Positions 6,069 to 22,169 of a stretch of 47,318 bases of DNA are shown in pieces. The notes under the pieces are model-generated. The model made no database searches, was not told the DNA's origin, and was given only the letters and a program-made list of their open reading frames with translations. The number at the start of each line of letters is the position of its first letter. Position 1 is the first letter of the stretch. Source of the stretch: an uncultured Schlesneria sp. (GTDB taxonomy: Bacteria > Planctomycetota > Planctomycetia > Planctomycetales > Planctomycetaceae); contig CAIULL010000003.1 of NCBI GenBank assembly GCA_903899985.1, positions 1 to 47,318 on the forward strand. Reading direction: 5' to 3'. The position numbers and the translations under genes were made by a program.

Positions 6069-6436
6069 GGCCAACGCCAAACTGAACGGGCTAAAAGCCG
6101 CCGAAAGTCGCAAGAAGAGAGCCCATCAAGGTTTCTGACGAGCTGAGAAAGCGAATCTTAATCGCCTCACAGTCCATATTTTCCAAGAATTACAAGGATT
6201 TACAAGAGTTTTCGGACACTTCTCGTACAGATCGAGAATTTGCGAGCCCGTCACGGAGCGACAAAGTTGAAGAAAAACGGCGTCCGAATCGGCACGTTGT
6301 ATGGCTTGTGATGCCGCCGCGAGCACGTTCACAATTCGAGTAAAAAATCATCGCGAAAAGGACGTTTTTCCGTGCCTAAAGCGCGGTACAACGAATGTGA
6401 AACACCCTCCAGAATAGAGAATCACACAATACCGAG

Positions 6437-7498
6437 ATGGCCAAACTTTTCCACCCACTCTTGACGCTAATTGCATCCGCCACGGACCGAGAACTTGCGA
6501 AGCACGTCCAATATTTGAAAGAAGAGAACAAGATTCTTCGAAGTCGACTTGGAGTCGCGGTTCACACTCGTCCTGAGGAGCGGCAACGGCTGATTGAGTT
6601 TGGCAAGGTGCTCGGCCGGGCAATCGAAGAACTGATCACGATCGTCTCGGCATCGACGTTCTATCGTTGGTGTCGAGAAGAGAAGTGCGGCAAGAAAAAG
6701 CCGAATCCCAAAGGTGGGCAACGCAAGCCACGGGAGATTCGTGAGTTGGTATTGGAAATCGCCAAGATCACCGGCTTTGGATACACGCGGATCATCGGGG
6801 AGTTGCGAAAACTGGGGATCAAAGGCATCAGCCGCCAGACGGTTCGGAACATCCTCAAGGAAGAAGGGATTACGCCAGCACCGGATCGGACCTCGGACAA
6901 ATGGGAGAACTTCCTGGAACGCCACCAGAACACACTGTGGGCAGTTGATTTCTTCTCAGTGAAGTCGATAACGGCTCGCGGCATCCAGGAACTCTACGTC
7001 CTCGTCTTCTTGTGCATGCATAGTCGCGAAGTGATCGTTTCATCCTCGACGAAGCATCCGAATTCTGCCTGGGTCACGAAGCAAACAGAGATGTTCATCG
7101 AGAAGACGGCAGATCGAAAGGAGAAACCCTCCATCGTGTTGCACGACCGCGATACGAAATTCACGAAGGAGTTCGTCGCGACGCTGAAAGCAAAGGATAT
7201 TCGGACGAATGCATTGCCGATTGCTTCTCCGAACCTGAACGGCCGGGTGGAGAGGTTCATTCAGACCATCAAATATGAGTGCCTCTTCAAGTTCATCCTG
7301 TTCGGCCAACGGCACATGGATCACATCGTGTCGGAGTGGGTGGCCTATTACAATCGCACGCGTTCGCACATGGAACGTGGAAATCTGCCTCCAATCCAAG
7401 AGACGCCTGAGGAAGTGTTGAAACCCGACCGTGACCAGATCACCGTCCGATCGTACGTCGGCGGTCTGGTCAAGTCCTTCGAGCGGAAAGCGGCGTAG
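6437..7498 (+). CDS. DDE integrase-core transposase
   Basis: 353 residues. A helix-turn-helix stretch around residues 100-145 (GYTRIIGELRKLGI, SRQTVRNIL) precedes a retroviral-type integrase core. Its acidic residues are in WAVDFFSV, VLHDRDTKF and SPNLNGRVERFIQTIKYE. The C-terminus contains YNRTRSHM and the usual P-rich tail. This is the IS3/IS481-like single-ORF type common in planctomycetes. The reading frame is intact. I could not identify terminal inverted repeats or a target duplication with confidence, so the limits of the element are unknown. Confidence 0.85.
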   Translation: MAKLFHPLLTLIASATDRELAKHVQYLKEENKILRSRLGVAVHTRPEERQRLIEFGKVLGRAIEELITIVSASTFYRWCREEKCGKKKPNPKGGQRKPREIRELVLEIAKITGFGYTRIIGELRKLGIKGISRQTVRNILKEEGITPAPDRTSDKWENFLERHQNTLWAVDFFSVKSITARGIQELYVLVFLCMHSREVIVSSSTKHPNSAWVTKQTEMFIEKTADRKEKPSIVLHDRDTKFTKEFVATLKAKDIRTNALPIASPNLNGRVERFIQTIKYECLFKFILFGQRHMDHIVSEWVAYYNRTRSHMERGNLPPIQETPEEVLKPDRDQITVRSYVGGLVKSFERKAA

Positions 7499-7799
7499 AA
7501 CCTGGCCGACTTCGATTCACGCATAACAACTCCCAGGATTTCGAGTTATCGAAAATCGTCGTACGGTAGTCCATCGTGAATCACTTCCGCCCGATTACAC
7601 ACTTCTTGTAACTGCGGCCGACCAACAAGCCTAACACAAGAGTGAAGAGGTGACCTCGTTGTGCGGGGGGCTCGTGACGCCGCGAGACCCCCGCACAACA
7701 GTGGATTACTCGTCATCGGCTGAGCGAGCTTACCGTTGCCGATCGCTTCGTTGGCGCATCGCGTCTTTGTATTCGTGTCTATATCTACCCTTCGGTGCG
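7499..7799. other. Gene-free stretch with a strong hairpin
   Basis: No supported gene. It holds the 42-base hairpin described separately and no other clear signal. It lies between the transposase and the methyltransferase fragment. Confidence 0.5.
7658..7699. repeat. Long hairpin, GTTGTGCGGGGG arms
   Basis: An 18-bp arm (GTTGTGCGGGGGGCTCG plus t) pairs with its downstream complement with one mismatch around a 6-base loop. There is no U-tract, so it is more likely a palindromic repeat or element end than a Rho-independent terminator. Confidence 0.6.
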
Positions 7800-7972
7800 A
7801 TGATGACATCCACACCTGATCCGATTTCGAATTCTCAGCTCGCTGCGAAGCTGACTTCGCCACCGAGTCGAGTTCGTCATCTCGAATCGCTCGTTGATGA
7901 CGGCATGCGTTTCCCCACGATTTACGCCGATCCGCCTTGGGACTATGCCAACCGGGCGGCACCGGGACATGT
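7800..7972 (+). pseudogene. MT-A70-type adenine methyltransferase, N-terminal fragment
   Basis: From ATG 7800 the frame reads about 57 residues ending RFPTIYADPPWDYANRAAPG. The motif FPTIYADPPW-Y is the catalytic DPPW segment of MT-A70-family N6-adenine DNA methyltransferases, which should continue for another 130-150 residues. Homology stops abruptly near 7970, where the 3' end of the minus-strand HsdR-N-like gene begins. The fragment lacks most of the methyltransferase fold and should be inactive. Confidence 0.65.
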
Positions 7973-7984
7973 AAAGCGTTAGGC

Positions 7985-8597
7985 AATTGGTCTGCTCAAT
8001 CAGTTTGCTGTTCGTGAGCGAGAAGAGAATTTCGAGGTCGCCCCATTCGCCGGTTAGGCGATCGATTTGTTCCTGTGAGAATGACCGGACAAGCGGCGTC
8101 CAACATTTGTTGCTTGACCCGAGCAAAGTTTCAACCGCATTTGTCAGATCAGACCTCGCCAGCGTGGCTGACGATGTGAACAGATGAGACAGAGCAGTTT
8201 CATCTCGGTTTTGCGGCGTCCATTCCTTGCCGCTGAAGGTTTCATAAATTCGTGTCTCGCTTTCATTGCTGACGATGACCAACGGTGGCCAAGGCTCCAT
8301 CAATCGCGCATACGACAGACCTTGGCCGCGGTCGTCCTCAGTCAGTTCAATACCAGGACGTTTCAATTCTAAGATCGCTAGGTGCGCACCGTCTTTGGTG
8401 ATGAGCAGATCGCAACGACCGGCGGCCCAGTCGTCAGCAGTGCTTTTAATGTTGTGCATCGTACGCCCAATACGTATGCGGAACGTCAATTGATGTTGAA
8501 TGTTGTTGGTCGAGAGTGCTGGAAACGCCTGTTGAAGGACTGCAGAGATGGCCGCTTCAAAATCCGCTTCAGTTGGGCGATGTTTCGAGGATTTCAT
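7985..8597 (-). pseudogene. HsdR N-terminal-like nuclease, 3' truncated
   Basis: From ATG 8597 about 204 residues resemble the N-terminal nuclease domain of type I restriction HsdR subunits. PD-(D/E)XK residues are D63, E77-L-K79 (AILELKRP) and the QGLSY motif at 92-96. Downstream of about 7985 the frame runs on as low-quality sequence to a stop at 7785, across the antisense of the methyltransferase fragment. The original C-terminus was therefore replaced at a recombination junction. It lies 79 bp downstream of the ImmA gene on the same strand and was probably its cotranscribed effector. A shortened but active nuclease cannot be excluded. Confidence 0.65.
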
Positions 8598-8676
8598 ATT
8601 GATCTTTTTTGGTCGTTGCGATCGATTACACAATAACGGCGATGGCTGACTTCGCACGATTTTCTGACGCTTATCC

Positions 8677-9594
8677 TCAAGGCACAAAGATTTTCGACCG
8701 TGTGAGAGTTGCAACCGAATGGATAAGAATGAATACCTGATGACCTTGGGTAAACGCCTCGGCCATGCAACGATGACGAGTCTGATTTCGGTCGATTAGC
8801 GTTATTGGTCGTGGACGAGACATTTTACGCCCCCCGATTGGAACAATTGCCCCTATCTCATCATCGGGGCCAAATGATTCTGGCCAAGCAAGTTCGCCGA
8901 ACTGCCGTCGAAACTCTTCTGACACCACCATTCGCCGAAAAATTGCAACAAAACCTCGAATGTCGCATGCTACTGGCGGCTCAAGCACGAGGACAGCACA
9001 CGCACGATGATGCTGCGTGACGTATCTCCTTACCGACATATAAATGGACGCACCGTAGCGCTTACTGAGTCGAACAGGAACGAGGATGTTGAAGTCGCAC
9101 TGATGTGCTTCTTCGGAGAAGGAATCAAGCTGAAACAGAACATCGGCGGCAAAAGCGTTTGCCTCCCGTTCAAACTGTTCAGCGATGTCGGGAGCGAGAG
9201 TCTTTTCGCAATCCTCTGTAACCACGAAAATCTTGCGTTGCCATGGAAGGACAGCATGACCGGTTTCGTGAAGCTTTAAGAACGTACGTTTTGCGATGTG
9301 AATTGTCTTATCGAGATAAACAATTCTCGCTGCCACATGCAAAACCCCAAGCACTTTGCTCAGGGCACTCAGAAGAGATTTGCCAGCTTCAGCCGACTTA
9401 CGGCGAAGCTTCGCGAGAAATCCTTCGTCAATCTGGGGAAGCTCAGATACGACAACCTGAGCAGCTTCCATAATTGCTGGTATCGGAGTTGGAAAGCAAC
9501 CGAGCGCGTCTGCGTCCAGCAATGCTTTTTCCGCATGTTTTCGAATTATGGTGCGCTGTTCGTTGGTCAGCGAATAGTCATCAGGTCTTGCCAC
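8677..9594 (-). CDS. ImmA/IrrE-type metallopeptidase
   Basis: About 305 residues from GTG 9594, chosen because it follows a purine-rich GGGGGAAAG and overlaps the XRE stop by 14 bp; an ATG at 9624 is possible. The zinc motif is H109-E110-T-G-H113 in FLKLHETGHAVLPW, followed by the EQFEREANAFAADVLF helix that supplies the third ligand. The family cleaves XRE-type repressors and is typically encoded beside them, which is the case here. The C-terminal half (about 190-305) is less conserved and may sense a signal. It probably relieves repression by the adjacent XRE protein. Confidence 0.85.
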   Translation of the reverse strand: MARPDDYSLTNEQRTIIRKHAEKALLDADALGCFPTPIPAIMEAAQVVVSELPQIDEGFLAKLRRKSAEAGKSLLSALSKVLGVLHVAARIVYLDKTIHIAKRTFLKLHETGHAVLPWQRKIFVVTEDCEKTLAPDIAEQFEREANAFAADVLFQLDSFSEEAHQCDFNILVPVRLSKRYGASIYMSVRRYVTQHHRACAVLVLEPPVACDIRGFVAIFRRMVVSEEFRRQFGELAWPESFGPDDEIGAIVPIGGRKMSRPRPITLIDRNQTRHRCMAEAFTQGHQVFILIHSVATLTRSKIFVP

Positions 9595-10021
9595 CTTTCC
9601 CCCTCTGTGAGCGCAAGAAGGCAAGATACTGAAGTAAGCTTTCTTCTTCGTCTTCTGTCAGATTTGCCTCTGTGAATGTCGCTGCACGTCCGTGACGAAC
9701 AGCCCCTGTCGCACGCAACTTGTCGTGCCCCGAATTCGAAGAAGAAAAGTATCCTGCCTTCTCCATCAGCGTATCGTAAGGAATCGCATAAACGACAGAA
9801 ATCGCATGAAGGATATTTGGAGAGGGGCGCGTGATCTTGTCATTCTCGAGTTGGGAGAGATACGCATTTGAGACTTCGCGTTCAGTAGCCTCTTCAACCT
9901 CACGAAGTGTCATTTGACGAATTCCGCGGATTGCTGCCAAATATTTTCCAAGTGACTGGCCTTCGCCTTGAGTCGCAGACGACTCTGTTTTGTCGTTTAC
10001 CGCTGTCTTTTTCTTGGGCAT
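9581..10021 (-). CDS. XRE-family helix-turn-helix regulator 1
   Basis: 146 residues. The HTH occupies about residues 25-85 (YLAAIRGIRQMTLREVEEAT, YLSQLENDKI, PSPNILHAISVVY). A basic N-terminal tail precedes it and an acidic/hydrophobic tail follows (EEESLLQYLAFLRSQRG). The C-terminus and the LEND/KAGY motifs closely parallel XRE regulator 2 at 13033, so the two may bind similar operators. GGAG lies just upstream of the ATG. It is translationally coupled to ImmA and divergent from the ubiquitin-like module, the usual position for a repressor controlling both directions. Confidence 0.88.
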   Translation of the reverse strand: MPKKKTAVNDKTESSATQGEGQSLGKYLAAIRGIRQMTLREVEEATEREVSNAYLSQLENDKITRPSPNILHAISVVYAIPYDTLMEKAGYFSSSNSGHDKLRATGAVRHGRAATFTEANLTEDEEESLLQYLAFLRSQRGKGGKT

Positions 10022-10078: not shown

Positions 10079-10098
10079 GCAATCTGCTCACTGTATGC

Positions 10099-10127
10099 TT
10101 GACAAACTTAGCACTGCTGCATATCAT
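10099..10127 (+). promoter_or_regulatory. Promoter and operator for the ubiquitin-like module
   Basis: TTGACA (10099-10104), 17-bp spacer, TATCAT (10122-10127). Inside the spacer lies AGCA-c-TGCT (10110-10118). Both the promoter and this palindrome recur at the same spacing upstream of XRE2 (12987-13015); 22 of 28 positions are identical over the shared block. I infer an XRE operator that blocks RNA polymerase. Confidence 0.7.
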
Positions 10128-10201: not shown

Positions 10202-11308
10202 ATGGGTATTCCAGAGCAGAATCTGTGCCATGAAGGTCCTCAGCCTTCGGCAAAATGGGCGTGTGTAGTGGAGGACGTTGTTGTTGCGGTGCCGCACAAG
10301 GTCGTCCTGGTCTCGGTGATCAAGGCGCAGGCATCAATCGGAGGTGATTTCGTTTTGGTGAGGGATCACAACTCACCCAACGATGTTGTTCTCCATGACG
10401 ACGCCGAAGTGGATCTCTCGCGAGGCAACGTTTTTTACAGTTTGTTGCGATGTGAGGTGCAAGAGCGAAGCGATTGTATGGATACCCCCAAACTTGCCTT
10501 CATTGTCGACGATCGAGCCGAGATCACAACGAGAGGCGAACAAAACGGAAATATGCTTCGTGAACTGTTTGGGTTGGCTCATCATGCTCGTCTTGAGCGA
10601 GATTTGGAGGGGCCGAATGACGAATATATTTCGCTTGAGGCGGTCGTTCGTTTTGTCGATGGCCCAGTTTTCTACTCACGAACTGAAGAAGCGACTCTGA
10701 AGATAACTGTCAATTCCAGGGTCTACACGGAGCATCAAGGCGTGATGGCCACGATGACCGGATTACAAATCGCGACGTTGGCGTTTCCTGACAGGCCATC
10801 TGAGACACGAGTCTGGTTTGTTTCGGAAGTACGTCGCGAAGTGACGCTGACGGAAACGGTACACATTCACGGCTGCGAGGTTTTCGAAGTTGTTCGAAGA
10901 GAAGTGACTGGCGGATATGAGATGTCACGGATGGATCGCGAAATATCTGAATTAAGGGACGGAGGGCAACAAATTACCCTGGTTCCGGCGCCAGTAAATG
11001 CTGTCGTTTATCACAATCTTGTCACTCGCAACGGTCAGAACGTCTCAGTCACGGACGTGTTGGTTCCAATTCCGGGCGGCTATCCAGCGCAATTCATCGA
11101 TCTCGCATTCTTGCCTGACGATTCACCGCTTATTGGCAAAGTGAAAGGAGAGCCTCAGGGGCCCCGGGTTGTTGCCTTGGGCCGCACATGGCGACAAATC
11201 AGTTATCACCCGCATCAGGGTGGGGGCGCACCGACGTGGAATCCAACAGTTCACGGCTTTCACACTTATCTTGGAGAGTTGCTCTCATGGCTCAGCAATT
11301 GGAAATAA
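10202..11308 (+). CDS. Multi-ubiquitin-like/E2-fold fusion protein
   Basis: 368 residues, with AGGAG 9 nt before the ATG. About three beta-grasp ubiquitin-like units can be seen: roughly 25-85 (VSVIKAQASIGGDFVLV...GNVFYSL), 95-160 (PKLAFIVDDRAEITTR... GPVFYSR) and 165-240 (LKITVNSRVYTEHQG...TGLQIATLAF... GCEVFEVV). The last unit fits the bacterial multi-ubiquitin pattern well. Residues 245-368 resemble the Prok-E2_E domain (VLVPIPGGYPAQFIDL, GRTWRQISYH, GFHTYLGELLSWL). No cysteine occurs after about residue 222, so a canonical E2 catalytic cysteine is missing. Its stop overlaps the JAB-E1 gene by 22 bp. The domain assignment is my reading; the exact number of ubiquitin-like units is uncertain. 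Confidence 0.75.
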   Translation: MGIPEQNLCHEGPQPSAKWACVVEDVVVAVPHKVVLVSVIKAQASIGGDFVLVRDHNSPNDVVLHDDAEVDLSRGNVFYSLLRCEVQERSDCMDTPKLAFIVDDRAEITTRGEQNGNMLRELFGLAHHARLERDLEGPNDEYISLEAVVRFVDGPVFYSRTEEATLKITVNSRVYTEHQGVMATMTGLQIATLAFPDRPSETRVWFVSEVRREVTLTETVHIHGCEVFEVVRREVTGGYEMSRMDREISELRDGGQQITLVPAPVNAVVYHNLVTRNGQNVSVTDVLVPIPGGYPAQFIDLAFLPDDSPLIGKVKGEPQGPRVVALGRTWRQISYHPHQGGGAPTWNPTVHGFHTYLGELLSWLSNWK

Positions 11309-12825
11309 AGTCTGTCCGCCTCAAGAATGATTCAGCGTCGCTGGTGAGGATTCGTGGGAGTGATCGCCAAGAACTGGAAAAGCATCTCTTCCAACGCTAT
11401 CCGAACCGAGAGTGGGGAACTTTTTTCCGCTACGGCTGGCGGCGAACTCCCTGGGGAGTGGCCATTTTTTATGTAGATGGATTGTGGCCTGAATCAGGTG
11501 ATCTCGAGCGGCAAACCCCACTAACAACATTTCGCGAACAATACAGCCGAAGAGCGTTCCAAGTTGCTCGCGAATCGAACGGCCTAGGACTCGGAGTCAT
11601 TCATTCCCATCCGGCTGGATACGGCACGGTCCCAAGTGCACTCGATGATGACATGGACCTCTACTTCGGCAGGGAGTTCAGCACATTTTCGGGCGGCTCG
11701 CCGTATTGCAGTCTGATTTTTCAACGAAGTGAAAAACGAGGATTCACGTTTTCTGGTCGAGTTTATGATCGAGGAGCTTGGTTACCAGTCACGGATCTGA
11801 TCACGGTTGGTCAAACCATCGAGAGGACGCGAAGCGAACTTGTCCAAATTCCTCCAGTGAGCGAACTTACACTTTTGAAGGGAAAAGGCCTGGCTGCAGA
11901 AAGGTTAGCCAGCGTTATGGGAATGCCGTCATTGCGGCGGCTGCAAAGTGCAGTCGTTGGCGTTGTCGGATGCAGTGGGACGGGCTCCCCAGCAATTGAA
12001 GTGCTGGCCCGAGCACAAGTCGGTGAATTTGTCCTGGTGGACCCTCAACGATTCGGAACATCAAACCTCGAGCGGATTCACGGCTCGGTCTTCAAAGATT
12101 CAGAGGGACCGGAATTTCCATACAAAGTCGACCTGATGCGAAAAATGATTTTAGAGATCAACCCAGATGCCCGCGTTACAACTTTCGTTGGGAATATTCT
12201 GCACGAGAACGTTATCGATGAATTGGTTCGTTGCGATATCGCACTCGGCTGCGTTGACTCCCATCACGGGCGGCTTGCCCAGAGCGATTACTCAAAACAC
12301 TTTCTTCTCCCGTCGCTGGACATCGGTGTGAGAATGTTCGGTTCGGATAGTAAAGTGAGCGAACAAACGATTGATATCACGAAATTCGGTCCAGAGTACC
12401 CGTGTGCATTCTGTGGAGGGCGAATCAACTCATCCGAACTGGCCATTGAGCTGATGACTGAGGAAGAGCGACAATTTCGTCAAGCAGCAGCAGAAGATGC
12501 CGTTGCCAGAGGTGACGACCCCGATCATTACTGGAAACAACAGACTCGACAGCTGCATACGGTCGGATATTTAACGACAGCAGCCGGCGCGCTCGGTGCA
12601 GGATACGCCGAGGGTTGGTTGACCGGTGCTTTCTCAAATCCGCATTCCAGTCTTCAATTTGATCCGAGCAAGGATCATTTTGCATGTGTTGCGCCGCCAC
12701 GAGAGCAAGCCGAGAACTGCACCTGTGGTCGTCATATTGGCTGGGGAGAACAAGCACGATCGTTTCGAAATATCTTCGTGCCTTCCCATTGGTCTAAAAA
12801 AGCTGTTCTGCGGAATCGTCCATAG
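11287..12825 (+). CDS. JAB deubiquitinase-E1 (ThiF) fusion protein
   Basis: 512 residues from ATG 11287 (GGAGAG just upstream); the longer in-frame start at 11188 lies deep inside the previous gene. Residues 1-170 are a JAB/MPN metallopeptidase domain with a JAMM-like motif: E42, H106-S-H108-P, S117-x-x-D120. Residues 220-420 are a ThiF/E1 adenylation domain (VVGVVGCSGTGSP, then VDPQ). Paired cysteines C373/C376 (CAFCGG) and C478/C480 may bind zinc. Such a fusion could process and activate the ubiquitin-like units of the preceding protein: JAB trims, E1 adenylates. Bacterial operons of JAB, E1, E2 and multi-ubiquitin proteins are known from comparative genomics. The link to Argonaute next door is the unusual feature. 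Confidence 0.88.
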   Translation: MAQQLEIKSVRLKNDSASLVRIRGSDRQELEKHLFQRYPNREWGTFFRYGWRRTPWGVAIFYVDGLWPESGDLERQTPLTTFREQYSRRAFQVARESNGLGLGVIHSHPAGYGTVPSALDDDMDLYFGREFSTFSGGSPYCSLIFQRSEKRGFTFSGRVYDRGAWLPVTDLITVGQTIERTRSELVQIPPVSELTLLKGKGLAAERLASVMGMPSLRRLQSAVVGVVGCSGTGSPAIEVLARAQVGEFVLVDPQRFGTSNLERIHGSVFKDSEGPEFPYKVDLMRKMILEINPDARVTTFVGNILHENVIDELVRCDIALGCVDSHHGRLAQSDYSKHFLLPSLDIGVRMFGSDSKVSEQTIDITKFGPEYPCAFCGGRINSSELAIELMTEEERQFRQAAAEDAVARGDDPDHYWKQQTRQLHTVGYLTTAAGALGAGYAEGWLTGAFSNPHSSLQFDPSKDHFACVAPPREQAENCTCGRHIGWGEQARSFRNIFVPSHWSKKAVLRNRP

Positions 12826-12986
12826 GCCACCTCGCACCTGGAACGATTGTGTATTGCTTTTACTGGCTGGGGTTAAAGTGCTTTTCCTGGACCGCATCCA
12901 ACGACACTGAAGCAAACGTAGACCAGAGCACCGCTTCACGCTTGAACATTTTCACGACAGTTTATGGAGACTCCTCCGTCGAGTGC

Positions 12987-13015
12987 TTGACATCTTTAGC
13001 AATGCTTGATATGCT
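12987..13015 (+). promoter_or_regulatory. Promoter and operator for the Argonaute operon
   Basis: TTGACA (12987-12992), 17-bp spacer, TATGCT (13010-13015). AGCA-a-TGCT (12998-13006) lies in the spacer at exactly the position it has in the promoter at 10099. The start codon of XRE2 is only 17 nt beyond the -10 box, so the leader would be about 10 nt and has no clear ribosome binding site. Confidence 0.7.
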
Positions 13016-13032
13016 TGGCGGCGAAAATTTAA

Positions 13033-13380
13033 ATGGAAAACTCATTGGGATCGTTTCTGTCACGGATACGAAACAGCAAGGGATGGTCTCTTCGTCACGT
13101 TGAGTCACAGACCGGCATTTCCAACTCGTATTTATGCCAAATTGAGAATGATCAAATACGTGAGCCGTCGCTACAGAAACTGTTGAAACTGAGTGAACTT
13201 TACGAGATATCTTACCCGGAGCTTCTCAAACAGGCGGGATATCCAATTCGAGAACCAAATGCTCACACCGATGTCGCGAGCCGGTCTATACCCCAGCTTG
13301 AAAATCTTTCTAGCGAAGAACAAGAAGCGCTCGTCGACTATTTAACGTTCTTGCGCTCAAGAGGACGAAGGAGGCGCTGA
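13033..13380 (+). CDS. XRE-family helix-turn-helix regulator 2
   Basis: 115 residues. The HTH covers about residues 3-62 (SFLSRIRNSKGWSLRHVES, NSYLCQIENDQIREPS). The tail LSSEEQEALVDYLTFLRSRG mirrors the end of XRE regulator 1, indicating common descent. It is the first gene of the Argonaute operon; its stop TGA shares a base with the ATG of the nuclease gene. Position and the palindrome in its promoter point to an autorepressor, with the XRE1/ImmA pair perhaps providing signal-dependent relief. That regulatory link is inference. Confidence 0.88.
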   Translation: MENSLGSFLSRIRNSKGWSLRHVESQTGISNSYLCQIENDQIREPSLQKLLKLSELYEISYPELLKQAGYPIREPNAHTDVASRSIPQLENLSSEEQEALVDYLTFLRSRGRRRR

Positions 13381-14312
13381 TGGTTTGGTCGATATCTGAA
13401 AGCCGCACTTTTAAGAGGTGCCAACGTCAATGGTATTTTAAGAATTTTGTCGCGAATGCCCTCGCAAAAGATCCATTGCGGCACGAAGCATATCTTCTTT
13501 CCAAATTGCAAAGCGTCAGTGCGTGGCGCGGAAATGTGGTTGACTCAGTCATCAGCGAATTCGTTTTGCCATCATTACGCAAAAAGCAACTTCCGAAATT
13601 GCCTGAAGCGATTCGCAATGCCAAAAGTCTTTACGATCAACAAGTGGCTTTCGCACTCCGCCATCCGTTGCACGATCCGCAAATGAGTCCTTCAAAGGCA
13701 GGAACAAAATTCGCCGCATTTTATTGCATGGAATACGGCGGATCGGTGGCGCAGTCAGAATTGGATCAGGCGTGGGATGATATCCAAGCTGCTTTAACGA
13801 ATTTCTACGAGATGACGGAGGTTCATAGCGAATTGCTGTCAGCTACGTATGTGATTGCTCAACGTGCTCTTTCGTTTTCGCACTCCGGGAGCAGCGTTCG
13901 GGCTGTGCCCGATGCTATCGCGTTTTTTCGTCAGGGCCCGCCACTTATTCTGGATTGGAAAGTTCATTCTTTCGGTCTGCAGGAGGCATGGACCCAATTG
14001 GCAACCTACGCGATCGCGCTGACTCGGTGTACGCCCCACAAAGATTTTCCAAGTAATTTCAGCCAGCTTAACCCGCACGACGTTCGACTCGCAGAAGTGC
14101 AGCTACTTAAGAAGCAAGTGAGGCGATACGAACTTTCGGAAGACGACATTGATCGAGCAGATGCGTACATTGCCGAAAGTGTCACCCTCATGGAATGGGC
14201 GACTGAGGGAAAGACAGGAAAAGAGTTGCAGCCTACCGATTTGCCGCCAGCGGTATCACCAGATGTGTGCCAGCGCTGCAGCTTTAGAAAGCTCTGTTGG
14301 AGTGCAGAATGA
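13380..14312 (+). CDS. Cas4/RecB-like PD-(D/E)XK nuclease with Fe-S cysteines
   Basis: 310 residues. The N-terminus (SISESRTFKRCQRQWYF) is the standard opening of RecB/AddB/Cas4-type nucleases. Active-site candidates are D178 (VPDAIAF), D192-W-K194 (LILDWKVH) and Q206/Y210 (QLATYAIAL). One N-terminal cysteine (C14) and three C-terminal cysteines (C297, C300, C306 in CQRCSFRKLC) match the 4Fe-4S arrangement of the family. The family degrades or trims DNA ends, often with a helicase; none is encoded here. It shares an ATGA overlap with the Argonaute gene, so it probably acts in the same pathway, for instance by producing or destroying DNA that Argonaute uses. Confidence 0.88.
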   Translation: MVWSISESRTFKRCQRQWYFKNFVANALAKDPLRHEAYLLSKLQSVSAWRGNVVDSVISEFVLPSLRKKQLPKLPEAIRNAKSLYDQQVAFALRHPLHDPQMSPSKAGTKFAAFYCMEYGGSVAQSELDQAWDDIQAALTNFYEMTEVHSELLSATYVIAQRALSFSHSGSSVRAVPDAIAFFRQGPPLILDWKVHSFGLQEAWTQLATYAIALTRCTPHKDFPSNFSQLNPHDVRLAEVQLLKKQVRRYELSEDDIDRADAYIAESVTLMEWATEGKTGKELQPTDLPPAVSPDVCQRCSFRKLCWSAE

Positions 14313-16669
14313 CCGTGAAACTTGAAACGAATATTTTTGCAATCACGAATTTAGCGGAACTTTCGTCCCGCTATCGCCTCTATCGCATCCGTGGCCTCCA
14401 CAAGGATCAGGCTGAATTTCATCAAAACAAGAACATCATCACGCGAAAGATTAGTTTTGCGCTGCGAACACCGGCGGCCGTCATTTCGCATCAAGGCGAA
14501 CCCCATTTAGTTGTCCGCGAGGACGCTCCGGAGCCACCCTCTCCGTATCAACTTGTTCGAACTACGGTTTACTTTGACGTTGTTCCAGGGAACTTGAATC
14601 TCGATTATTCAGTGAGAACTCCGGAAAACGACGAAATCTGTCTGCGGTTCTTACAGTTCATGCTCCAAGCCCCGCTTTCCAATAATCAGCTGCTTTGGCA
14701 GCCCGGCGCTGGACAGCCGTTTTTCCGGAAGGAACCTCGAAATATTCGTGGCGATCTGAGTCTCTACGGCGGATGCGCAGTGCGTGCGGTGGCAACTCCT
14801 GACGGAGGGTTAGGGCTCTGCGTCGATGTGTGCCACAAATTAGTGAGTCGTAACCCACTGCCAATCAAAATGACGCGAACTCAATTTCGGCCGTGGCGGG
14901 GACGGCATTGCATCTATAGATTCGGACATCGGTGGTACGACATTCAACTGCACGAGTTCTCGGATTTGAATGTCACAGAAACGCTACTCCCATTGACTGG
15001 AGGCAATCCCACACTTCTGCAATACATCGTCGCCGAATGTAGAAAGCCAATACCGGAGGAACTTTCGGCTCTTCCTCATGACGCTTCCGTAGTCCATTAT
15101 CTGACGAATCGGAGCGAAACACGCTCGGCCCCAGCGGGCCTGTGTTTCCCAGTGCACGATACTCAGGGTGAAGGCGGAAACGGCCATCGGGAATCAATTT
15201 TGCGTCCACATGAGCGAAGAGAAATGATCCGAAGGTTCGTCGCACAGTTTCTTGTCAATCTAAAATTCGGAGATGCCAAGCTCAACGTCGCGACAGAAGC
15301 ATGCGCAATCCCACACAAATTGTTTCAGATTCCTGATTATGAATTCGGTAACGGCCGAATTCTTTCCGTCCGCGGCACCCCTGGTGCTCAGCAGGTGTCT
15401 TTGGATTCAATCGGAAGAACTCGAGCTGGATTGCTTCGAGATCACGATGCAGGGTTTTACTCTAACGATCGCCTTGATCGGCAGTATTTGTTTCTTCCTC
15501 AAAGTGTGGAAGATGGCTTTGGATCGCAATTCCGAACTGACTTGAAACGAACCGTTGAAGAATTGTATCCCAAGGGCGGAGGCTATAACCCAATTCTCGT
15601 TCCTTATGATGACAGAAGGCCGCGCACTTTTGTCGAACAAGGCAAAGCAATTCTGGAGGCCGCCGAGCGGCAAAATATGAAGGATGGATTTGCATTGGTG
15701 ATGATTCATCACACGAGCGATAAACAAATCCGTCAGCATGACCATCTGGCAGCGATGGTTATCCGAAAGTTCAGAGAGTTCGACGTTTTCGCTGCAGTGA
15801 ATCATTCTGCAATGGGACAAGAATGCTACCGGATGGCAACTGGACGCGATGGCCGTCCTTATTACGAAGTTGCGAATGACAAACGCGGGAAGTTCTCCGG
15901 CTACCTGAGAAATGTTGCGCTCAACAAGATCTTGTTGACTAACGAGAAATGGCCGTTCGTTCTTGCATCACAACTTCATGCTGATGTCACCGTAGGAATC
16001 GACGTCAAACAAAACACAGCCGGCTTCACAGTTATTGCTCGAGGTGGCAGCATCGTGAGAACGGTTTGTCACCAATCGAACCAAAAGGAACGACTTTTGA
16101 GTGATCAGGTACGAAGGTACTTCTGTGATATCCTGAGGAAAGAAGCCGATTGTGGCACAACAATAAAAACCATTGTGGTCCATAGAGACGGGCGAGTCTG
16201 GCAATCAGAGATTGATGGAATGAAAAAAGGTCTCGAGATTCTTCGCAAAGAAGGAGTGGTGCAGTCAGATGCAACGCTCACCATTGTAGAGATCTCAAAA
16301 TCATCTCCGGCACCTCTGCGATTATTTGATACTTCCGTAAATGGCCAAACGAAAGTTGAGAATCCTCAGGTCGGGCAGTATTACATCGGCGCCGGCGGCG
16401 ATGGATATTTGTGTGCAACAGGTCGTGCTTTTGCTAGGGCTGGGACCGCAAAGCCGCTGCATGTGCGATTCGTTGAGGGGAGTCTGCCTTTTGAAGCATG
16501 CTTGGAAGATCTTTACAGTTTGACGGCTCTCACTTGGACGAGGCCAGAAGATTGCGCCCGTGATCCAATCACGATCAAGTTAACCGATCGAAGGTTGGGA
16601 GAGGATGCTTCCGAATACGACGCTGACGCGCTGGAGTTTGAGCCAGATGAAGAGGAGGCGCATGTATGA
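14309..16669 (+). CDS. Long prokaryotic Argonaute (pAgo), apparently catalytic
   Basis: 786 residues from ATG 14309 (ATGA overlap with the nuclease stop). The C-terminal PIWI domain is clear: VTVGIDVKQNTAGF with D565, a candidate glutamate finger E594 (NQKERLL), TIVVHRDGRVW with D627, and PITIKLTDRRLGE with D760. This gives a complete DEDD-type tetrad, so target cleavage is plausible. The MID region (about 455-555) contains DGFALVMIHH and a NKILLTNEKWPF segment preceding PIWI, as in other pAgos. The N-terminal half (1-330) should hold the N and PAZ domains but is poorly recognisable. pAgos use short guide nucleic acids to recognise invading plasmid or phage DNA. The role in this operon is inferred. 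Confidence 0.88.
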   Translation: MTVKLETNIFAITNLAELSSRYRLYRIRGLHKDQAEFHQNKNIITRKISFALRTPAAVISHQGEPHLVVREDAPEPPSPYQLVRTTVYFDVVPGNLNLDYSVRTPENDEICLRFLQFMLQAPLSNNQLLWQPGAGQPFFRKEPRNIRGDLSLYGGCAVRAVATPDGGLGLCVDVCHKLVSRNPLPIKMTRTQFRPWRGRHCIYRFGHRWYDIQLHEFSDLNVTETLLPLTGGNPTLLQYIVAECRKPIPEELSALPHDASVVHYLTNRSETRSAPAGLCFPVHDTQGEGGNGHRESILRPHERREMIRRFVAQFLVNLKFGDAKLNVATEACAIPHKLFQIPDYEFGNGRILSVRGTPGAQQVSLDSIGRTRAGLLRDHDAGFYSNDRLDRQYLFLPQSVEDGFGSQFRTDLKRTVEELYPKGGGYNPILVPYDDRRPRTFVEQGKAILEAAERQNMKDGFALVMIHHTSDKQIRQHDHLAAMVIRKFREFDVFAAVNHSAMGQECYRMATGRDGRPYYEVANDKRGKFSGYLRNVALNKILLTNEKWPFVLASQLHADVTVGIDVKQNTAGFTVIARGGSIVRTVCHQSNQKERLLSDQVRRYFCDILRKEADCGTTIKTIVVHRDGRVWQSEIDGMKKGLEILRKEGVVQSDATLTIVEISKSSPAPLRLFDTSVNGQTKVENPQVGQYYIGAGGDGYLCATGRAFARAGTAKPLHVRFVEGSLPFEACLEDLYSLTALTWTRPEDCARDPITIKLTDRRLGEDASEYDADALEFEPDEEEAHV

Positions 16670-17031
16670 GCAGTACTGGTCTTTACTCTGGCCTTTATTC
16701 CAAAGTTCGAGAGTATGCAGAACTTCTTGATGGCGTGCTGATTCGACTTAAAGACGGGCAGAATAGAGCAGATGACGCCGCAAGTCGGCGTCTTGCAGAA
16801 TTGCTCGTTGCAATCGACAAAACGCCGTTCAAGGACTTATCGACGCAATTATTGGCCGTGTTGATTCGAGATCCACATCGTGATCGTTCAACCGGTTTGT
16901 CTGAAGTAGGAGAGGCCCTGCTGCGCGGCGACGTGTCGCCGGCAATCATCGAACGCTTGGAGGAACTTGCAACGCAACTCGAACGTGAACGTTCCAGTAT
17001 GGTTGGATTTATGCGAGGCCGAAGCGAGTGA
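16666..17031 (+). CDS. Unrecognised 121-residue helical protein in the Argonaute operon
   Basis: I do not recognise this family. The sequence looks mainly helical and charged, with possible coiled-coil stretches at about 10-30 (YSKVREYAELLDGVLIRL) and 92-115 (IIERLEELATQLERERS). There is no signal peptide, membrane segment, cysteine or catalytic motif. It starts inside the Argonaute stop (ATGA) and ends inside the start of the next gene (GTGA), so its expression is stoichiometrically coupled to both. A small accessory or adaptor subunit of the Argonaute or of the putative peptidase is the simplest reading. Confidence 0.75.
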   Translation: MSSTGLYSGLYSKVREYAELLDGVLIRLKDGQNRADDAASRRLAELLVAIDKTPFKDLSTQLLAVLIRDPHRDRSTGLSEVGEALLRGDVSPAIIERLEELATQLERERSSMVGFMRGRSE

Positions 17032-18152
17032 ACGAATACTTGGAAGGTTCAGTTCGACAGCTCATCGAACGTGGGCGGCAATTGACCGCCACAATTCCTC
17101 GCAATCTGCCTCGGGACTACGACACGCTCGCCCGAACCTGCCGGGAGAAGTTGATTCAACTCAACGAGCAACTTCGTTCACTGCTGGACGATCCCAGATT
17201 CAGCTATTTAAAACATCAGCCAGAACGACTGCGCTCGTTTAAAAGATTGGTTGCCGAACTTGATCTCATCGAAACGATGGGCATAGCCGCTCTCGATCGC
17301 GCAAACGACGAAGATCATAAACTCAATTCCTTGCTTGAAACAATCACGCGTGAAATTGCCTATCCTTTCGAGACCCCGGTTGTGACAACGTTGTCGCAAC
17401 AGTACTTTTGCATCGTCACGGATTTGAATTTGTTGTGCGTGCCGTTGGCCGAAGGGCGTTTTTTACTCCATTTGCCAGATTTATATCACGAGTTGGCTCA
17501 CCCACTTTTGACGCTTCTTGATGATCCCATCGTCGAACCATTTCAAAATGCAATGCTGTTTGCATTGCAAGAAACAATTGAATACTTGGACGCGGAGTCA
17601 ATCAAGCAAGATCGACGGCGTGGTCCAGAGCGACCGACAATTACGTTGCAGCGTTGGAAGATTTGCTGGGTGAAGTACTGGATGGTCGAGTTTTTTTGTG
17701 ATTTGTTTGCGGTCCTGGTACTTGGTCCAGCGTTCGCATGGTCGCATTTTCATCTATGCGCAAAAAGAGGGCAAAATCCATTCGACGTGCCATTGTTCGG
17801 AACTTCTTCTCATCCAGCGGATGATGCTCGAATGCGCGTGATGATCGTTGCGTTAAAAAACGCGGGCTTCGCTTCTGCTGCTGACAATATCGCGAAACGA
17901 TGGTCTGATTTAGTCGGTCTTAGCGGATACATTTTAGAGCCGGAATACCATCAATGTTTTCCAGACAGTGTGCTCGAGTCAATCAGTCGGCACGCGCTTT
18001 CTGGGGTATCAAACATAGGTTGCCGAATCGCCAGCCCATCAACCGCCGATCAAGTTCATTCGGCACTCAATTCAGCATGGGAACAATTCTGGCTTAGGCC
18101 AACAGAATATGTAGAGTGGGAACGGGCAGAGGTCACTCGAATGATCTCGTAA
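17028..18152 (+). CDS. Putative zinc metallopeptidase (HELAH...ExxxD) in the Argonaute operon
   Basis: 374 residues with a GTG start overlapping the preceding stop. The motif LPDLYHELAHPLL gives H154-E155-L-A-H158. About 62 residues later YWMVEFFCDLFAVLV gives E221-x-x-x-D225. HExxH followed by a helix with E and D is the layout of gluzincin-like peptidases, so zinc binding by H154, H158 and E221 is likely. The first 120 residues are helical with charged heptads. Segments around 215-240 are hydrophobic but read as an amphipathic core rather than clear membrane spans. I do not know a named family. In this operon it could be a protease effector or a processor of a partner protein; that is inference. 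Confidence 0.72.
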   Translation: MNEYLEGSVRQLIERGRQLTATIPRNLPRDYDTLARTCREKLIQLNEQLRSLLDDPRFSYLKHQPERLRSFKRLVAELDLIETMGIAALDRANDEDHKLNSLLETITREIAYPFETPVVTTLSQQYFCIVTDLNLLCVPLAEGRFLLHLPDLYHELAHPLLTLLDDPIVEPFQNAMLFALQETIEYLDAESIKQDRRRGPERPTITLQRWKICWVKYWMVEFFCDLFAVLVLGPAFAWSHFHLCAKRGQNPFDVPLFGTSSHPADDARMRVMIVALKNAGFASAADNIAKRWSDLVGLSGYILEPEYHQCFPDSVLESISRHALSGVSNIGCRIASPSTADQVHSALNSAWEQFWLRPTEYVEWERAEVTRMIS

Positions 18153-18390: not shown

Positions 18391-19890
18391 ATGTGCATGC
18401 TTCCTTTGAATGAACTGGCAGAGCAGTTATATCAACGCCAGTGGACCGTTGATTGCCCTGAAATGAGGCTTGATCAACCGAGCGTTGCTGGACTATCCCA
18501 ACTTTCTGGCCCTGGATACCTTCGGCAGGAAGACGACGGAGTCATAAGATTCAAGCTTTACGCGTCACAGAACGCAATTGATCTGCAATCGATTCATCCG
18601 AGGACCGGCGTTCCTGGTCGTCTTTTAGGAGACAGCTCTTTCCATCGTCTTGAGGCGATGGATATGCGTGGTAATGTCTGGAATGTGGAACGCGCATTAC
18701 CTGTTCCCGATACAAGCTTGATCGGTAGCAAGCAATTTCGGGTGGTGCGAGGTGATGCGCATGGTCTGGTCACGACGATGGACCAACCCAACAATGTATC
18801 GACTCTGAAAATGTTCTTTTTCACCGAGGAACGCGTGCCAGGGAATGCTTCCACCACGGTCACTACCATCACACCCGATGGCAGTGAGCATAGCTCTTCG
18901 AAACTAGATACTGCACAGTTCGAGACAGCTTTTGGCGTTTTTCACATCTATAATCGAAGTGGAATGTTGGTTGTTGATGTTGTAACTCAAACTGCGTTTC
19001 CAACAGGTTTTAGCACGCGGATCGTCGAGTCTTTGGGGTTCGTCTTGGCAAAACCACTTATGTGGAACGTGCTGGAATTGATTGTGGATGGCAAACGAAC
19101 CATCCGTTTGCGTGGTGACCGACAAACTGTTGATGCAAAGATTCAACCACCGGTAGTTAGCGGGACCATTGACATGAGCGGTGGTGATGTATGGCGGCTC
19201 TTCGACAAATACCTGGCAATGGTCTGCAGCCGGACTGAACAAGACTTTCATCCCGCTTCACGGCACGTCTTTTCTGCCTTGGAGGCCAGCGCGGGTGTCA
19301 TTGGCGCACGCGCTCTTGCGCTTGGTGTTGCTGTCGAGGGATTGGTTAAGGACCTTTTCCCAAATGCAGGAGCGCTTCCAACTACGCTCAAACCAGTCGT
19401 AAAGCGCTTGAGGAAGCATTGTCTTGCTTGGTCGGAATTTTCAGATGAAGAGACGAGAAAGCAACTGCACGGCAGGATCGAAGCGATGCTCGGCCGCATC
19501 CTTGAGGTAAGCGCAAAATCAAAACTCTACTCTCTCGCGAATCAAAAAGGGGTTCGTGAAACCCACATAGCGGCGTGGGGAGATTTACGTCACGCTGCTG
19601 CCCACGGTGTGACGCCAGGTTCCGACGATTTGCAAAAACTCGTCGATCTCTGTGACACGGTAAGTGTGCTAATGTACCAGATCATTTTTTGCGCAGTCGG
19701 TTACGAGGGCAGGTACCGGGACTATTCGGTTCGTGGTTGGCCGAAAAAATATTATCGAGGCCGATCTCCGACCGAAGAAGAAATCTCAGTTGCGGCCTAT
19801 TACATTTGGAAAAAGAATGGCGAAATACTCGGGTCAGACGTTGAGAATTGGTTAGTCGCAAAAGATGAACTGGAGAAGGAGCTCTACTGA
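18391..19890 (+). CDS. HEPN-like protein with a DUF2934 C-terminal domain
   Basis: 499 residues; ATG 18391 (MCMLPLN) is used. Residues 1-260 are beta-rich and of unknown family, with an arrangement reminiscent of ApeA-type N-terminal domains. A helical part from about 270 to 430 contains WGDLRHAAAHG, with R400 and H405 forming an RX4H motif typical of HEPN ribonucleases (also LALGVAVEGLVKDLF). The C-terminus (about 462-499: ISVAAYYIWKKNGEILG, ENWLVAKDELE) matches the small DUF2934 domain. ApeA and other HEPN proteins act as abortive-infection RNases. It lies 238 bp beyond the Argonaute operon, on the same strand; that gap holds no gene or clear promoter. It may be a separate defence gene. Confidence 0.68.
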   Translation: MCMLPLNELAEQLYQRQWTVDCPEMRLDQPSVAGLSQLSGPGYLRQEDDGVIRFKLYASQNAIDLQSIHPRTGVPGRLLGDSSFHRLEAMDMRGNVWNVERALPVPDTSLIGSKQFRVVRGDAHGLVTTMDQPNNVSTLKMFFFTEERVPGNASTTVTTITPDGSEHSSSKLDTAQFETAFGVFHIYNRSGMLVVDVVTQTAFPTGFSTRIVESLGFVLAKPLMWNVLELIVDGKRTIRLRGDRQTVDAKIQPPVVSGTIDMSGGDVWRLFDKYLAMVCSRTEQDFHPASRHVFSALEASAGVIGARALALGVAVEGLVKDLFPNAGALPTTLKPVVKRLRKHCLAWSEFSDEETRKQLHGRIEAMLGRILEVSAKSKLYSLANQKGVRETHIAAWGDLRHAAAHGVTPGSDDLQKLVDLCDTVSVLMYQIIFCAVGYEGRYRDYSVRGWPKKYYRGRSPTEEEISVAAYYIWKKNGEILGSDVENWLVAKDELEKELY

Positions 19891-20861: not shown

Positions 20862-21467
20862 ATGGATTATGTGTGTGATACAAACGTTTGGTACGACATT
20901 GCCGCCGGCAGACTCGATCCAGCAAAGCTCAAGGATGGCGGCAACAGGCTTCTTGCGCCGGCAATAAATGGGCTTGAAATCTCGTCGAACTTGTCGGCCA
21001 ATACGTTTAAAGATCGCAAGGCAGCATCTCAGGCCGTTATTGATCATGCCGATGATTATCTGGAAGACCCTGAGCGCACAATGGGGACGATTTGGGGTCT
21101 GAACCTTCCGCCTTTGGGATTCGACTGGCGGAACGTTTACCGAACGATTGCGGCCTCGAATGACCTGGCGGAAATCGTGAATGGAACACAGAACATCATG
21201 AAGGTGAATGCGGTCGCTGCCCAAGCGTGGCGTAAGGGCTTCACCGATAAGTTCGTCGCGGACGTTGAGACAGCCATACGCAAATACGCACCAAATTACG
21301 CTCTGAACAGGTTTCAGGGAAAACAAAGGGGACATTCTACTTTAATTTGCCAATGGGTTCGGTTACGCTTCCACCATGCCAAGAACATCGCGCGCGTCAC
21401 AGGGTGGATATGTTTACCATGTCCTCAATCGAGGAAATGGTCGAGCCGATGTTTTCCACAAAGATGA
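20862..21467 (+). pseudogene. PIN-domain-like gene, 3' end replaced by RAYT leader
   Basis: From ATG 20862 (AGGAG at 20848-20852) the N-terminus MDYVCDTNVWYDIAAGRL has the first acidic PIN-domain motif (DTNVWYDIA). Convincing protein sequence runs to about YALNRFQG (near 21318). From there the frame reads through the RAYT leader and the antisense-like start of the RAYT gene, ending at 21467. The native C-terminus was therefore cut off by the RAYT insertion. PIN proteins are Mg-dependent RNases, often toxins. About 150 of the probable native residues remain, so residual function is possible. Confidence 0.6.
21320..21342. repeat. RAYT leader repeat
   Basis: AAAGGGGACATTCTACTTT lies 34 bp before the RAYT start. 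It recurs inverted at 5041-5063 and, changed, at 5952-5976. Confidence 0.6.
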
Positions 21468-22047
21468 TGACTTTGCCGCCTTTGTCAGATTGATGCGTGA
21501 GGCGCATGATAAGATCCCCATGAGGCTGGTTGGTTATTGTTTGATGACCAATCACTTTCATCTGATGCTGTGGCCTTTCGGCGATGGCGCCTTGAGCCGA
21601 TGGATGCAATGGCTCATGACCTCACACGTGCGGAGGTATCATCGGCATTACAAAGGAAGCGGGCATGTGTGGCAGGGGCGTTTTAAAGCGTTTCCTGTCC
21701 AGGACGACGAACATTATTTGACGGTCTTGAGGTACGTCGAGCGGAATCCTCTGCGTGCAAACCTTGTCCAACGGAGTCAGGATTGGGAGTGGTCAAGTTT
21801 GAAGCCGACCGATCGCAGTGGACCGCCTGGATTGCTCGTTGATGGACCTGTGGCGAAGCCTGACTCGTGGACACGGTTCGTTAATGGTGTCGAGACCGAG
21901 GCGGAATTGAAGTCGGTGCGACACAGCCTTGAGCGGGGAACGCCGTTTGGCGACGAAGCCTGGCAGCAGGCGACTGCGGATCAGTTGGGGTTGGAATCTT
22001 CGCTGCGCCCGCGTGGACGACCGCGGTTGGGTGGGGAAGCGGGGTGA
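21376..22047 (+). CDS. REP-associated tyrosine transposase (RAYT)
   Basis: 223 residues of the Y1/HUH transposase superfamily. Visible motifs are GGYVYHVLNRGN, CLMTNHFHLMLW (the HUH pair H-F-H), SGHVWQGRFKA and YVERNPLRANLV with the candidate nucleophilic tyrosine. RAYTs are single-copy transposases thought to mobilise REP palindromes. Here the gene is followed within 80 bp by such a palindrome and by a tandem of shorter REP-like units. The reading frame is intact. Relics of the same gene lie at 5952-6068 and 22617-22710. Confidence 0.92.
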   Translation: MPRTSRASQGGYVYHVLNRGNGRADVFHKDDDFAAFVRLMREAHDKIPMRLVGYCLMTNHFHLMLWPFGDGALSRWMQWLMTSHVRRYHRHYKGSGHVWQGRFKAFPVQDDEHYLTVLRYVERNPLRANLVQRSQDWEWSSLKPTDRSGPPGLLVDGPVAKPDSWTRFVNGVETEAELKSVRHSLERGTPFGDEAWQQATADQLGLESSLRPRGRPRLGGEAG

Positions 22048-22060
22048 GGGTGACGCAGAA

Positions 22061-22140
22061 GACGAAAAAGGGGACACGAAGACGAAAAAGGGAACACGAA
22101 GACGAAAAAGGGAACACGAAGACGAAAAAGGGGACAGGCA
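22061..22140 (+). repeat. Four tandem 20-bp units, gacgaaaaaggg(g/a)acacgaa
   Basis: Exact 20-bp periodicity: units at 22061, 22081, 22101 and 22121. Units 2 and 3 are identical; the last merges into the full REP palindrome. They start 14 bp after the RAYT stop. This looks like amplification of the left arm of the REP. Confidence 0.9.
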
Positions 22141-22167: not shown

Positions 22168-22169
22168 GA

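Follow-up and report, generated by a model that had tools for sequence, protein, structure and literature searches.

A ubiquitin-like gene module and a D-R-type Argonaute operon with a matching predicted operator in an uncultured Schlesneria sp.

Do a ubiquitin-like (Ubl) conjugation module and the Argonaute operon beside it belong to one defence system? The question is raised by contig CAIULL010000003.1 of an uncultured Schlesneria sp. (assembly GCA_903899985.1; Planctomycetota). The whole stretch of 47,318 nucleotides that was analysed is called the window, and is part of an 8.0-Mb genome. An initial annotation placed a multi-Ubl/E2 protein and a JAB-E1 fusion directly upstream of the Argonaute operon on the same strand, an arrangement with which open reading frames and family matches agree, and interpreted the two modules as probably one defence system. 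Three explanations for their adjacency were compared. They may be separable modules released by one switch; they may be independent cargo of the same mobile islands; or they may form one integrated system, in which a target recognised by the Argonaute leads to tagging of bound or nascent proteins with Ubl, and a zinc protease works on substrates with or without the tag. The first is favoured with moderate confidence: a defence-type locus whose two separable modules answer to one switch of the DNA-damage type.

The genes of the Argonaute operon abut or overlap one another. Helix-turn-helix (HTH), M78 and HSDR_N genes (10021 down to 7785, minus strand), the HSDR_N gene being a putative member of the HTH-M78 unit, run divergently from the Ubl operon. 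The features of the locus are as follows.

7785..8714, minus: HSDR_N-type (PD-(D/E)XK) protein gene (HSDR_N 5.1e-6); overlaps the M78 gene, end of the divergent HTH-M78 unit
8677..9624, minus: M78 / CapP-like zinc peptidase gene (Peptidase_M78 1.7e-5; PADLOC capP 2.8e-14)
9581..10021, minus: XRE HTH repressor of the Ubl module, CapH-like (HTH_19 5.4e-6, below cut-off; HTH_3 1e-5, above cut-off; PADLOC capH 2.2e-5)
10097..10113, plus: predicted operator GCTTGACAAACTTAGCA; overlaps the Ubl promoter -35 (10099-10104), with the -10 at 10122-10127
10202..11308, plus: polyUbl protein fused to a cysteine-less E2/RWD-like domain (Prok-E2_E 7.7e-6; Multi_ubiq 1.1e-4)
about 11281..12825, plus: JAB-E1 fusion, with deubiquitinase-like and adenylating domains (ThiF 2.3e-20; Prok-JAB 0.0016)
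12985..13001, plus: predicted operator GCTTGACATCTTTAGCA; overlaps the Argonaute operon promoter -35 (12987-12992), with the -10 at 13010-13015
13033..13380, plus: XRE HTH regulator of the Argonaute operon, CapH-like (HTH_19 5.8e-12; PADLOC capH 3.5e-7)
13380..14312, plus: PD-(D/E)XK nuclease, Cas4-like (PDDEXK_1 1.7e-12; PADLOC Aga_Cas4-like_Nuc 4e-119)
14297..16669 (start probably 14309), plus: putative D-R type long Argonaute (PADLOC pAgo_II 2.3e-298; Pfam Piwi 1.4e-5, below cut-off)
16666..17031, plus: small, predicted all-helical protein of 121 amino acids, core gene of Argonaute loci
17028..18152, plus: HExxH zinc-protease-like protein of 374 amino acids (H154-E155-H158, E221), of no known family

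The operator before the two operons

The Ubl operon is preceded by the promoter TTGACA-17-TATCAT (10099-10127) and the Argonaute operon by TTGACA-17-TATGCT (12987-13015). The 17-mer GCTTGACANNNTTAGCA covers the -35 box of both, starting at 10097 and 12985. These are its only exact occurrences in the 8.0-Mb genome, where approximately 0.06 would be expected by simple base counting. One mismatch admitted two further genome sites. With up to two mismatches 28 sites were obtained vs 92 for a backwards control, so that only the exact sites carry weight. The matching operator is common to both promoters. Matching promoters and operators had been proposed in the initial annotation, as had a relationship between the XRE regulators; both points held, the two HTH proteins of the window being 38% identical with the same C-terminal motif.

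Conservation of the site was assessed in 41 Argonaute loci, referred to by number. An alignment-based scan of genome contigs yielded 38 loci; L047, which duplicates the record of L035, and two fragments (L076, L077) were removed, and the window and the five plasmid loci L035-L039 were added. L025 was omitted as a copy of L045, and near-copies such as L053/L054 and L060/L063 were retained. Less than 5 kb was available on at least one side of 13 of the 41. An HTH gene was present in 26 layouts and a sigma-70 factor in 11.

The pattern GCTYG-N7-WAGCA gave 47 matches at 42 places within 390-nt stretches round the HTH start, in 24 of the 26 HTH-type operons. The two counts differ through palindromic double matches, and near-copies among the 26 loci inflate them. 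Many Bacteroidota Argonaute operons carry two copies 32 bp apart. The exceptions were L043, in which the HTH is lost, and L046, which has a near variant. Elsewhere, 7 matches were found in 1.07 Mb (both strands), and two of these fall at Ubl promoters, in the window and in L042. Reversed, as a control, the pattern gave 0 matches near HTH starts and 2 elsewhere. A 9-mer, AGCANTGCT, was also considered as the operator; it was too narrow and was replaced by GCTTG-N7-WAGCA, a form of this pattern. The operator is a trait of the HTH-type Argonaute family whether Ubl genes are near or not, as would be expected of independent cargo in which each module has its own CapH-type repressor and the identical operator reflects a shared repressor family only.

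On the Ubl side, exact or looser copies of the operator lie between the HTH and Ubl genes in L042 and in L026 and L027 (no Argonaute found near the latter two). Every Ubl module with a closely related HTH (window, L026, L027 and L042) carries it. Among loci L175-L232, 8 of 58 had one loose motif match each, none resembling the operator core. Ubl-side and Argonaute-side HTH proteins are 37-54% identical, with a similar recognition-helix stretch and a common C-terminal tail, and the Ubl-side protein of the window is 61% and 56% identical to those of the Ubl modules L026 and L027. Related HTH proteins reading the same operator would cross-regulate in one cell, which argues against simple cohabitation in an island.

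An M78 gene is paired with the Ubl-side HTH gene in the window, L026 and L042, that of L042 scoring as PADLOC capP (6.2e-15). In the portion of PMC13373217 consulted, CapP is described as a protease of CapH that is activated by single-stranded DNA (ssDNA), and the pair as DNA-damage-responsive; CapW or CapH plus CapP are linked there to 219 of 544 Bub operons, an association that also suits independent cargo. The window resembles these systems in pairing an HTH gene with an M78 peptidase gene, both pointing away from an immune-type operon, the capH scores of the window being weak. It differs in its second operon, 2.9 kb away, which begins with a CapH-like HTH gene of its own and carries the identical operator. 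By analogy, the M78 protein is a candidate ssDNA-activated protease of the repressor. Joint release of the Ubl and Argonaute operons is the natural inference, because the HTH proteins are related, the operators are identical and CapP cleaves CapH in published work.

Ubiquitin-like genes beside Argonautes in other genomes

Custom hidden Markov models detected a Ubl-type E1 in the flank of 6 of the 41 Argonaute loci, in four phyla and three architectures. The paired loci are the window (Planctomycetota), L043 (Chloroflexota), L042 (Acidobacteriota) and, in Bacteroidota, L036 (Runella plasmid), L037 (Spirosoma plasmid) and L074 (Cytophagales metagenome-assembled genome, MAG). The window represents the first architecture, a polyUbl-E2 fusion with a JAB-E1. 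In the second, that of L042 and L043, a single Ubl is encoded on its own (Multi_ubiq 3.1e-10 and 8.4e-10), together with an E2-like protein (Prok-E2_E 2.9e-5, slightly below cut-off, in L042 and 2.3e-15 in L043) and an E1. In the third, L036 and L037 have a three-repeat multiubiquitin protein (three Multi_ubiq stretches each), an E1 bearing DUF6791 instead of JAB, and DUF6527; no E2 gene was seen beside these Runella and Spirosoma E1 genes, which counts against an integrated system. L074 shows DUF6527 and a partial E1 before the contig end. Recurrence in three Ubl architectures would be consistent with an integrated system.

In L043, one strand carries the Ubl, E2-like and E1 genes and, behind them, the Argonaute genes preceded by an HTH remnant. 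The reading frame of the remnant (8845-9099), behind the E1 gene, retains only the tail of the HTH protein. The regulator of the Argonaute operon has apparently given way to the Ubl genes, because DNA similarity to the close relative L045 starts inside the HTH tail and no operator remains. Ubl genes that lead into Argonaute genes on the same strand favour an integrated system, and an Argonaute operon that sits behind an E1 gene with its HTH domain and operator gone is at odds with independent cargo. Upstream of the Ubl genes in L043, a sigma-70 region 2 protein was found at 4819-5457 (5.6e-8).

Frequencies of other genes were used for comparison. One HsdR matched in 3 of 41 flanks and one type IIG protein in 3 of 41, both single-sequence queries that undercount; the higher figure for the Ubl E1 disfavours cohabitation alone. 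So does its absence from 20 control loci with other PIWI-domain proteins, 18 of them from the order of Runella aurantiaca (222 genomes) and 2 from Planctomycetota (226 genomes); one was below the family cut-off and 5 of the 20 stretches were shorter than 15 kb. The PF02171 search over Planctomycetota undercounts, because the window's own Argonaute was missed by it.

Numbers per genome were also compared. A longer Ubl-type E1 match, or in one case (G422) a partial match beside the Argonaute, was found in 11 of 37 genomes or records. Matches spanning less than approximately 185 positions were judged to be housekeeping MoeB/ThiF and were uncounted, and the search omitted the genome of L048. On plasmid CP150887 (L039), one of the 11, an E1 lies approximately 20 kb from the Argonaute, outside the adjacency limit, and was uncounted as a pair. 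Random placement of 11 Ubl E1 loci in the nine chromosomal or MAG genomes predicts approximately 0.05 within 10 kb, and 4 were observed (Poisson P ~2e-7). Among 72,556 plasmid records, the E1 was found on 115, the Argonaute (coverage of at least 80%) on 5 and both on at least 2 (P ~2.5e-5). Occurrence of both modules on plasmids is compatible with independent mobile cargo. The plasmid records with a Mub-ThiF E1 included 45 of 115 from Acinetobacter, and 83 of 115 were predicted to be mobilizable or conjugative. A literature search combining Argonaute and ubiquitin-like terms returned no paper whose listing describes the pairing; bioRxiv was not covered and subscription journals only sparsely, which makes this weak evidence of absence.

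Predicted gene products of the two modules

In the polyUbl protein of the window, Multi_ubiq matched one stretch at 22.8 bits vs a curated cut-off of 24.5, and the other repeats were recognised by eye. The JAB-E1 matched Prok-JAB at 18.7 bits vs a cut-off of 25 and ThiF above cut-off; its HSHP...S..D motif and nucleotide-binding motif were recognised by alignment. The JAB-type motif aligns in the E1 proteins of the window and L043 and partially in that of L042, which lends some support to an integrated system. Against it, the Pfam JAB match is weak in the window protein and undetected in L042 and L043, where the JAB part is visible in alignment only.

The E2-like domain of the window (Prok-E2_E) has zero cysteines. 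That of L027 also lacks cysteine, and the single cysteine of L026 is absent from both. Ordinary E2 thioester conjugation, as implied by the initial annotation, is not supported, because the E2-like domain has no cysteine; other chemistry would be possible. In the window, L026 and L027 a VTGG motif separates the E2-like part from the last Ubl, and the JAB domain could cut there. The nearest solved relatives of the JAB-E1 are Citrobacter BubCD 9ea4 (phmmer 8e-15, residues 83-352) and 9eav; it is BubCD-like, at a distant level of similarity.

These features fit the polyUbl operon class 6e of Iyer 2006. The consulted portion of PMC1779556 describes this class as having an inactive E2/RWD-like domain and either a JAB-E1 or an E1 with another N-terminal domain, which may correspond to DUF6791. 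An inactive E2 also speaks against an integrated system. Class 6e has two to three tandem Ubl domains, and the Ubl part of the window protein is putatively tandem. A Ubl part fused to a cysteine-less E2-like domain and JAB fused N-terminally to E1 are the likenesses to class 6e and Bub; the difference is the Argonaute, a word that occurs 0 times in the main texts of PMC1779556 and PMC13373217.

The Argonaute of the window is assigned to the D-R group (PliAgo/RslAgo). Identity to the Runella slithyformis protein (L036) is 36-37%. A profile of 7 family members, the window included, matched structure 7r8k, which we take to be PliAgo, at 2.9e-207. The catalytic residues D, E, D, D are invariant in all 41 aligned Argonautes. 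Long-B Argonaute systems with effectors, reportedly a long Argonaute with an associated nuclease (BPAN) and catalytically inactive PIWI domains, resemble the window in combining a long Argonaute with a nuclease. Assignment to Long-B was ruled out because the catalytic tetrad is intact. In the sample of the window's phylum the protein is rare, with 2 of 392 genomes. In tblastn of the window Argonaute against the 72,556 plasmid records there were 6 matches, of which 5 spanned 80% or more of the query, and a single-sequence scan of viral contigs gave zero.

In the part of PMC9360449 consulted, four D-R Argonautes are characterised, including RslAgo from Runella slithyformis, and cut RNA with DNA guides; group I has HTH and PD-(D/E)XK genes and group II a sigma-70 factor. 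As in group I, HTH and PD-(D/E)XK genes precede a catalytically intact long Argonaute in the window, and L036 is a record of the source species of RslAgo. DNA-guided RNA cleavage would be expected of the window protein by analogy with these relatives. The 'guided DNA recognition' of the initial annotation is probably wrong, because the Argonaute falls in an RNA-targeting group. The main text of PMC9360449 differs from the present loci in that 'protease' and 'ubiquitin' each occur 0 times and the two downstream core genes are unmentioned.

These two genes are predicted to encode near-obligate partners of the Argonaute. The HExxH protein gene was found in 40 of 41 loci, L041, the sole exception, ending at that point. 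The small helical protein gene was found in 39 of 41, L065 and L066 having no recognisable copy. The PD-(D/E)XK gene was found in 39 of 41, both misses (L064 and L074) being cut contigs; its D...DWK, E and Cys residues are kept in 37-39 of 39 aligned members. All three were absent from the 20 control loci. The putative protease noted in the initial annotation is supported by four residues that do not vary among 29 aligned members (H154, E155, H158 and E221, numbered as in the window protein), and so regular a protease partner is what an integrated system would have.

The AlphaFold2 model of the HExxH protein is confident and mostly helical (predicted local distance difference test, pLDDT, 94.6), and that of the small protein (16666-17031) has a pLDDT of 83.8. 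Fold searches with either gave no PDB match at E<=0.001, and with the cut-offs applied neither protein was matched to a family of Pfam, PADLOC or NCBIfam. A local likeness of the HExxH protein to minigluzincin 4jiu (probability 0.60, rank 17) is a hint at most. By analogy, the pairing of a guide-directed, RNA-recognising nuclease with a dedicated protease partner recalls Craspase, the type III-E CRISPR RNA-guided protease. The components differ, with gRAMP and the caspase-like TPR-CHAT there and a putatively DNA-guided Argonaute and an HExxH-type candidate protease here.

Other genes were recorded near these operons. In the Acidobacteriota Ubl operon (L042), the E1 gene is followed by a second gene for an HExxH-type protein (2-727; recognised by eye; no PADLOC match). 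A small gene pair lies directly 3' of the Argonaute operon in 8 Bacteroidota loci (L051 13978-14283, L056 14151-14492 and relatives). A PIF1-like helicase gene lies approximately 400-500 bp upstream on the same strand in the Bacteroidota loci L048, L049, L051-L054, L056, L062 and L071, and that of L049 bears a C-terminal HTH_40. The 16-locus neighbour cluster of Argonaute operons is largely this helicase (13 loci match), which is perhaps an alternative accessory module. In the window, a 499-amino-acid protein (18391-19890, same strand) is encoded 240 bp 3' of the Argonaute operon. Its sole match was DUF2934 near the C-terminus (2.4e-9), and it did not recur in the neighbour clusters of other Argonaute loci.

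Explanations for the pairing

Several observations weigh against a common switch and a specific association of the modules. No E1 was found in the available flank of 35 of the 41 Argonaute loci. In the reverse direction, 61 Ubl-type E1 loci other than those beside a seed Argonaute were examined (L026-L034 and L175-L226; up to approximately 10 kb each side, less at contig ends), and this Argonaute was found in none of their flanks. The order of Runella aurantiaca (291 genomes) supplied 16 of them, the phylum of L042 (199 genomes) 11, the phylum of L043 (201 genomes) 13 and the window's phylum (392 genomes) 21. Fewer than 15 kb were available for 14 of the 61, and weak Planctomycetota matches (e.g. 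L216, L220 and L222) may be housekeeping E1. Because of these two counts, the modules are regarded as separable and the pairing as facultative. The Bacteroidota pairs L036, L037 and L074 show no operator at the Ubl genes, and the L037 Argonaute locus is of the sigma-70 type. In L027 the operator and HTH are present, yet no M78 match was obtained within the 20 kb examined. An M78 match is near only 4 of 41 Argonaute loci, so that the Argonaute-side HTH need not be a CapP target. The P values from random placement take no account of defence islands, of host taxa in common or of plasmids that are nearly the same. E1 genes at 6 of 41 vs 0 of 20 loci gave a Fisher p of 0.08, so that specificity beyond general defence-gene clustering is not established. 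On the Argonaute tree, which was built by a quick method and leaves some forks open, the Ubl label has to change 6 times vs a mean of 5.7 for shuffled labels; the label is no more clustered than by shuffling and reads as scattered gains or losses.

In Rhodocytophaga aerolata, an Argonaute (L059) and a multiubiquitin-ThiF-DUF6527 module (L186, one of the 61 reverse loci) were found approximately 41 kb apart, apparently on one contig of 136,788 bases.

The initial annotation had named separation in nearly all relatives, together with the lack of shared regulation, as the outcome that would speak against it. Separation was largely what was found. Lack of shared regulation was not, because the operator is shared in the window and L042. 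One defence system is partly supported, by adjacency on the same strand, matching promoters and operator, related HTH regulators and recurrence, and opposed by modules that are mostly apart and by an E2-like domain without cysteine.

Under the preferred explanation, with two separable modules and one switch, the M78 protease would sense ssDNA from phage or plasmid entry or from DNA damage and would cleave the CapH-like HTH repressors, as CapP does with CapH. Both operons would be released together, their HTH proteins being related and the same predicted operator lying over each -35 box. The Argonaute would load short DNA guides, perhaps produced by the Cas4-like nuclease, and would cut complementary invader RNA in the manner of its relatives. 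The HExxH protease would be the effector or a processing step of the Argonaute complex. On the model of polyUbl/Bub operons, the JAB-E1 would adenylate the polyUbl, the cysteine-less E2-fold domain would handle or bind it, and the JAB domain would trim or remove it. The Ubl module would most likely be a second, parallel layer, induced simultaneously with the Argonaute operon. Direct chemistry joining Ubl to the Argonaute complex is conceivable; the link between tagging and proteolysis put forward in the initial annotation is conjecture.

Independent cargo that merely cohabits in defence islands is the strongest rival and is considered rather unlikely. It is favoured by the separability of the modules in both directions and by marks of an island: a tRNA-Arg with a partial duplicate, and genes of transposase type (6437-7498 and 21376-22047). 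The tRNA-Arg gene lies at 22772-22845 and a nearby 88-nt repeat (94%) at 22118-22205 covers part of it; a weaker 29-nt match (83%) lies 16.7 kb away at 6049-6077. These repeats possibly mark island boundaries. The Fisher value also leaves room for cohabitation, which is opposed by the E1 frequencies, the L043 arrangement and the expected cross-regulation given above. Purine-rich repeats with 20-bp spacing were recorded at 22058-22156, beside the duplicated tRNA end, and a cluster of eight tRNA genes at 37705-39507 on the plus strand.

A composite DNA-damage-induced immune system, in which a DNA-guided, RNA-cutting Argonaute, a near-obligate zinc protease and a helical adaptor would follow a Craspase-like logic with a Ubl module repeatedly coupled to them, is unlikely. 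An integrated system is more improbable still; of the 35 Argonaute loci that have no Ubl E1 in the flank, 34 carry the HExxH protease gene.

For D-R Argonautes, the literature consulted establishes chemistry in vitro and, as partners, the nuclease and regulator. The near-universal zinc-protease-like gene and the small helical gene provide a concrete experimental target. If the composite reading were true, nucleic-acid recognition, protein marking and proteolysis would cooperate in bacteria. The shared operator and the recurrent Ubl pairing make joint induction of guided RNA cleavage and Ubl chemistry testable, and raise the question of whether defence genes may be stacked by regulation rather than solely by location.

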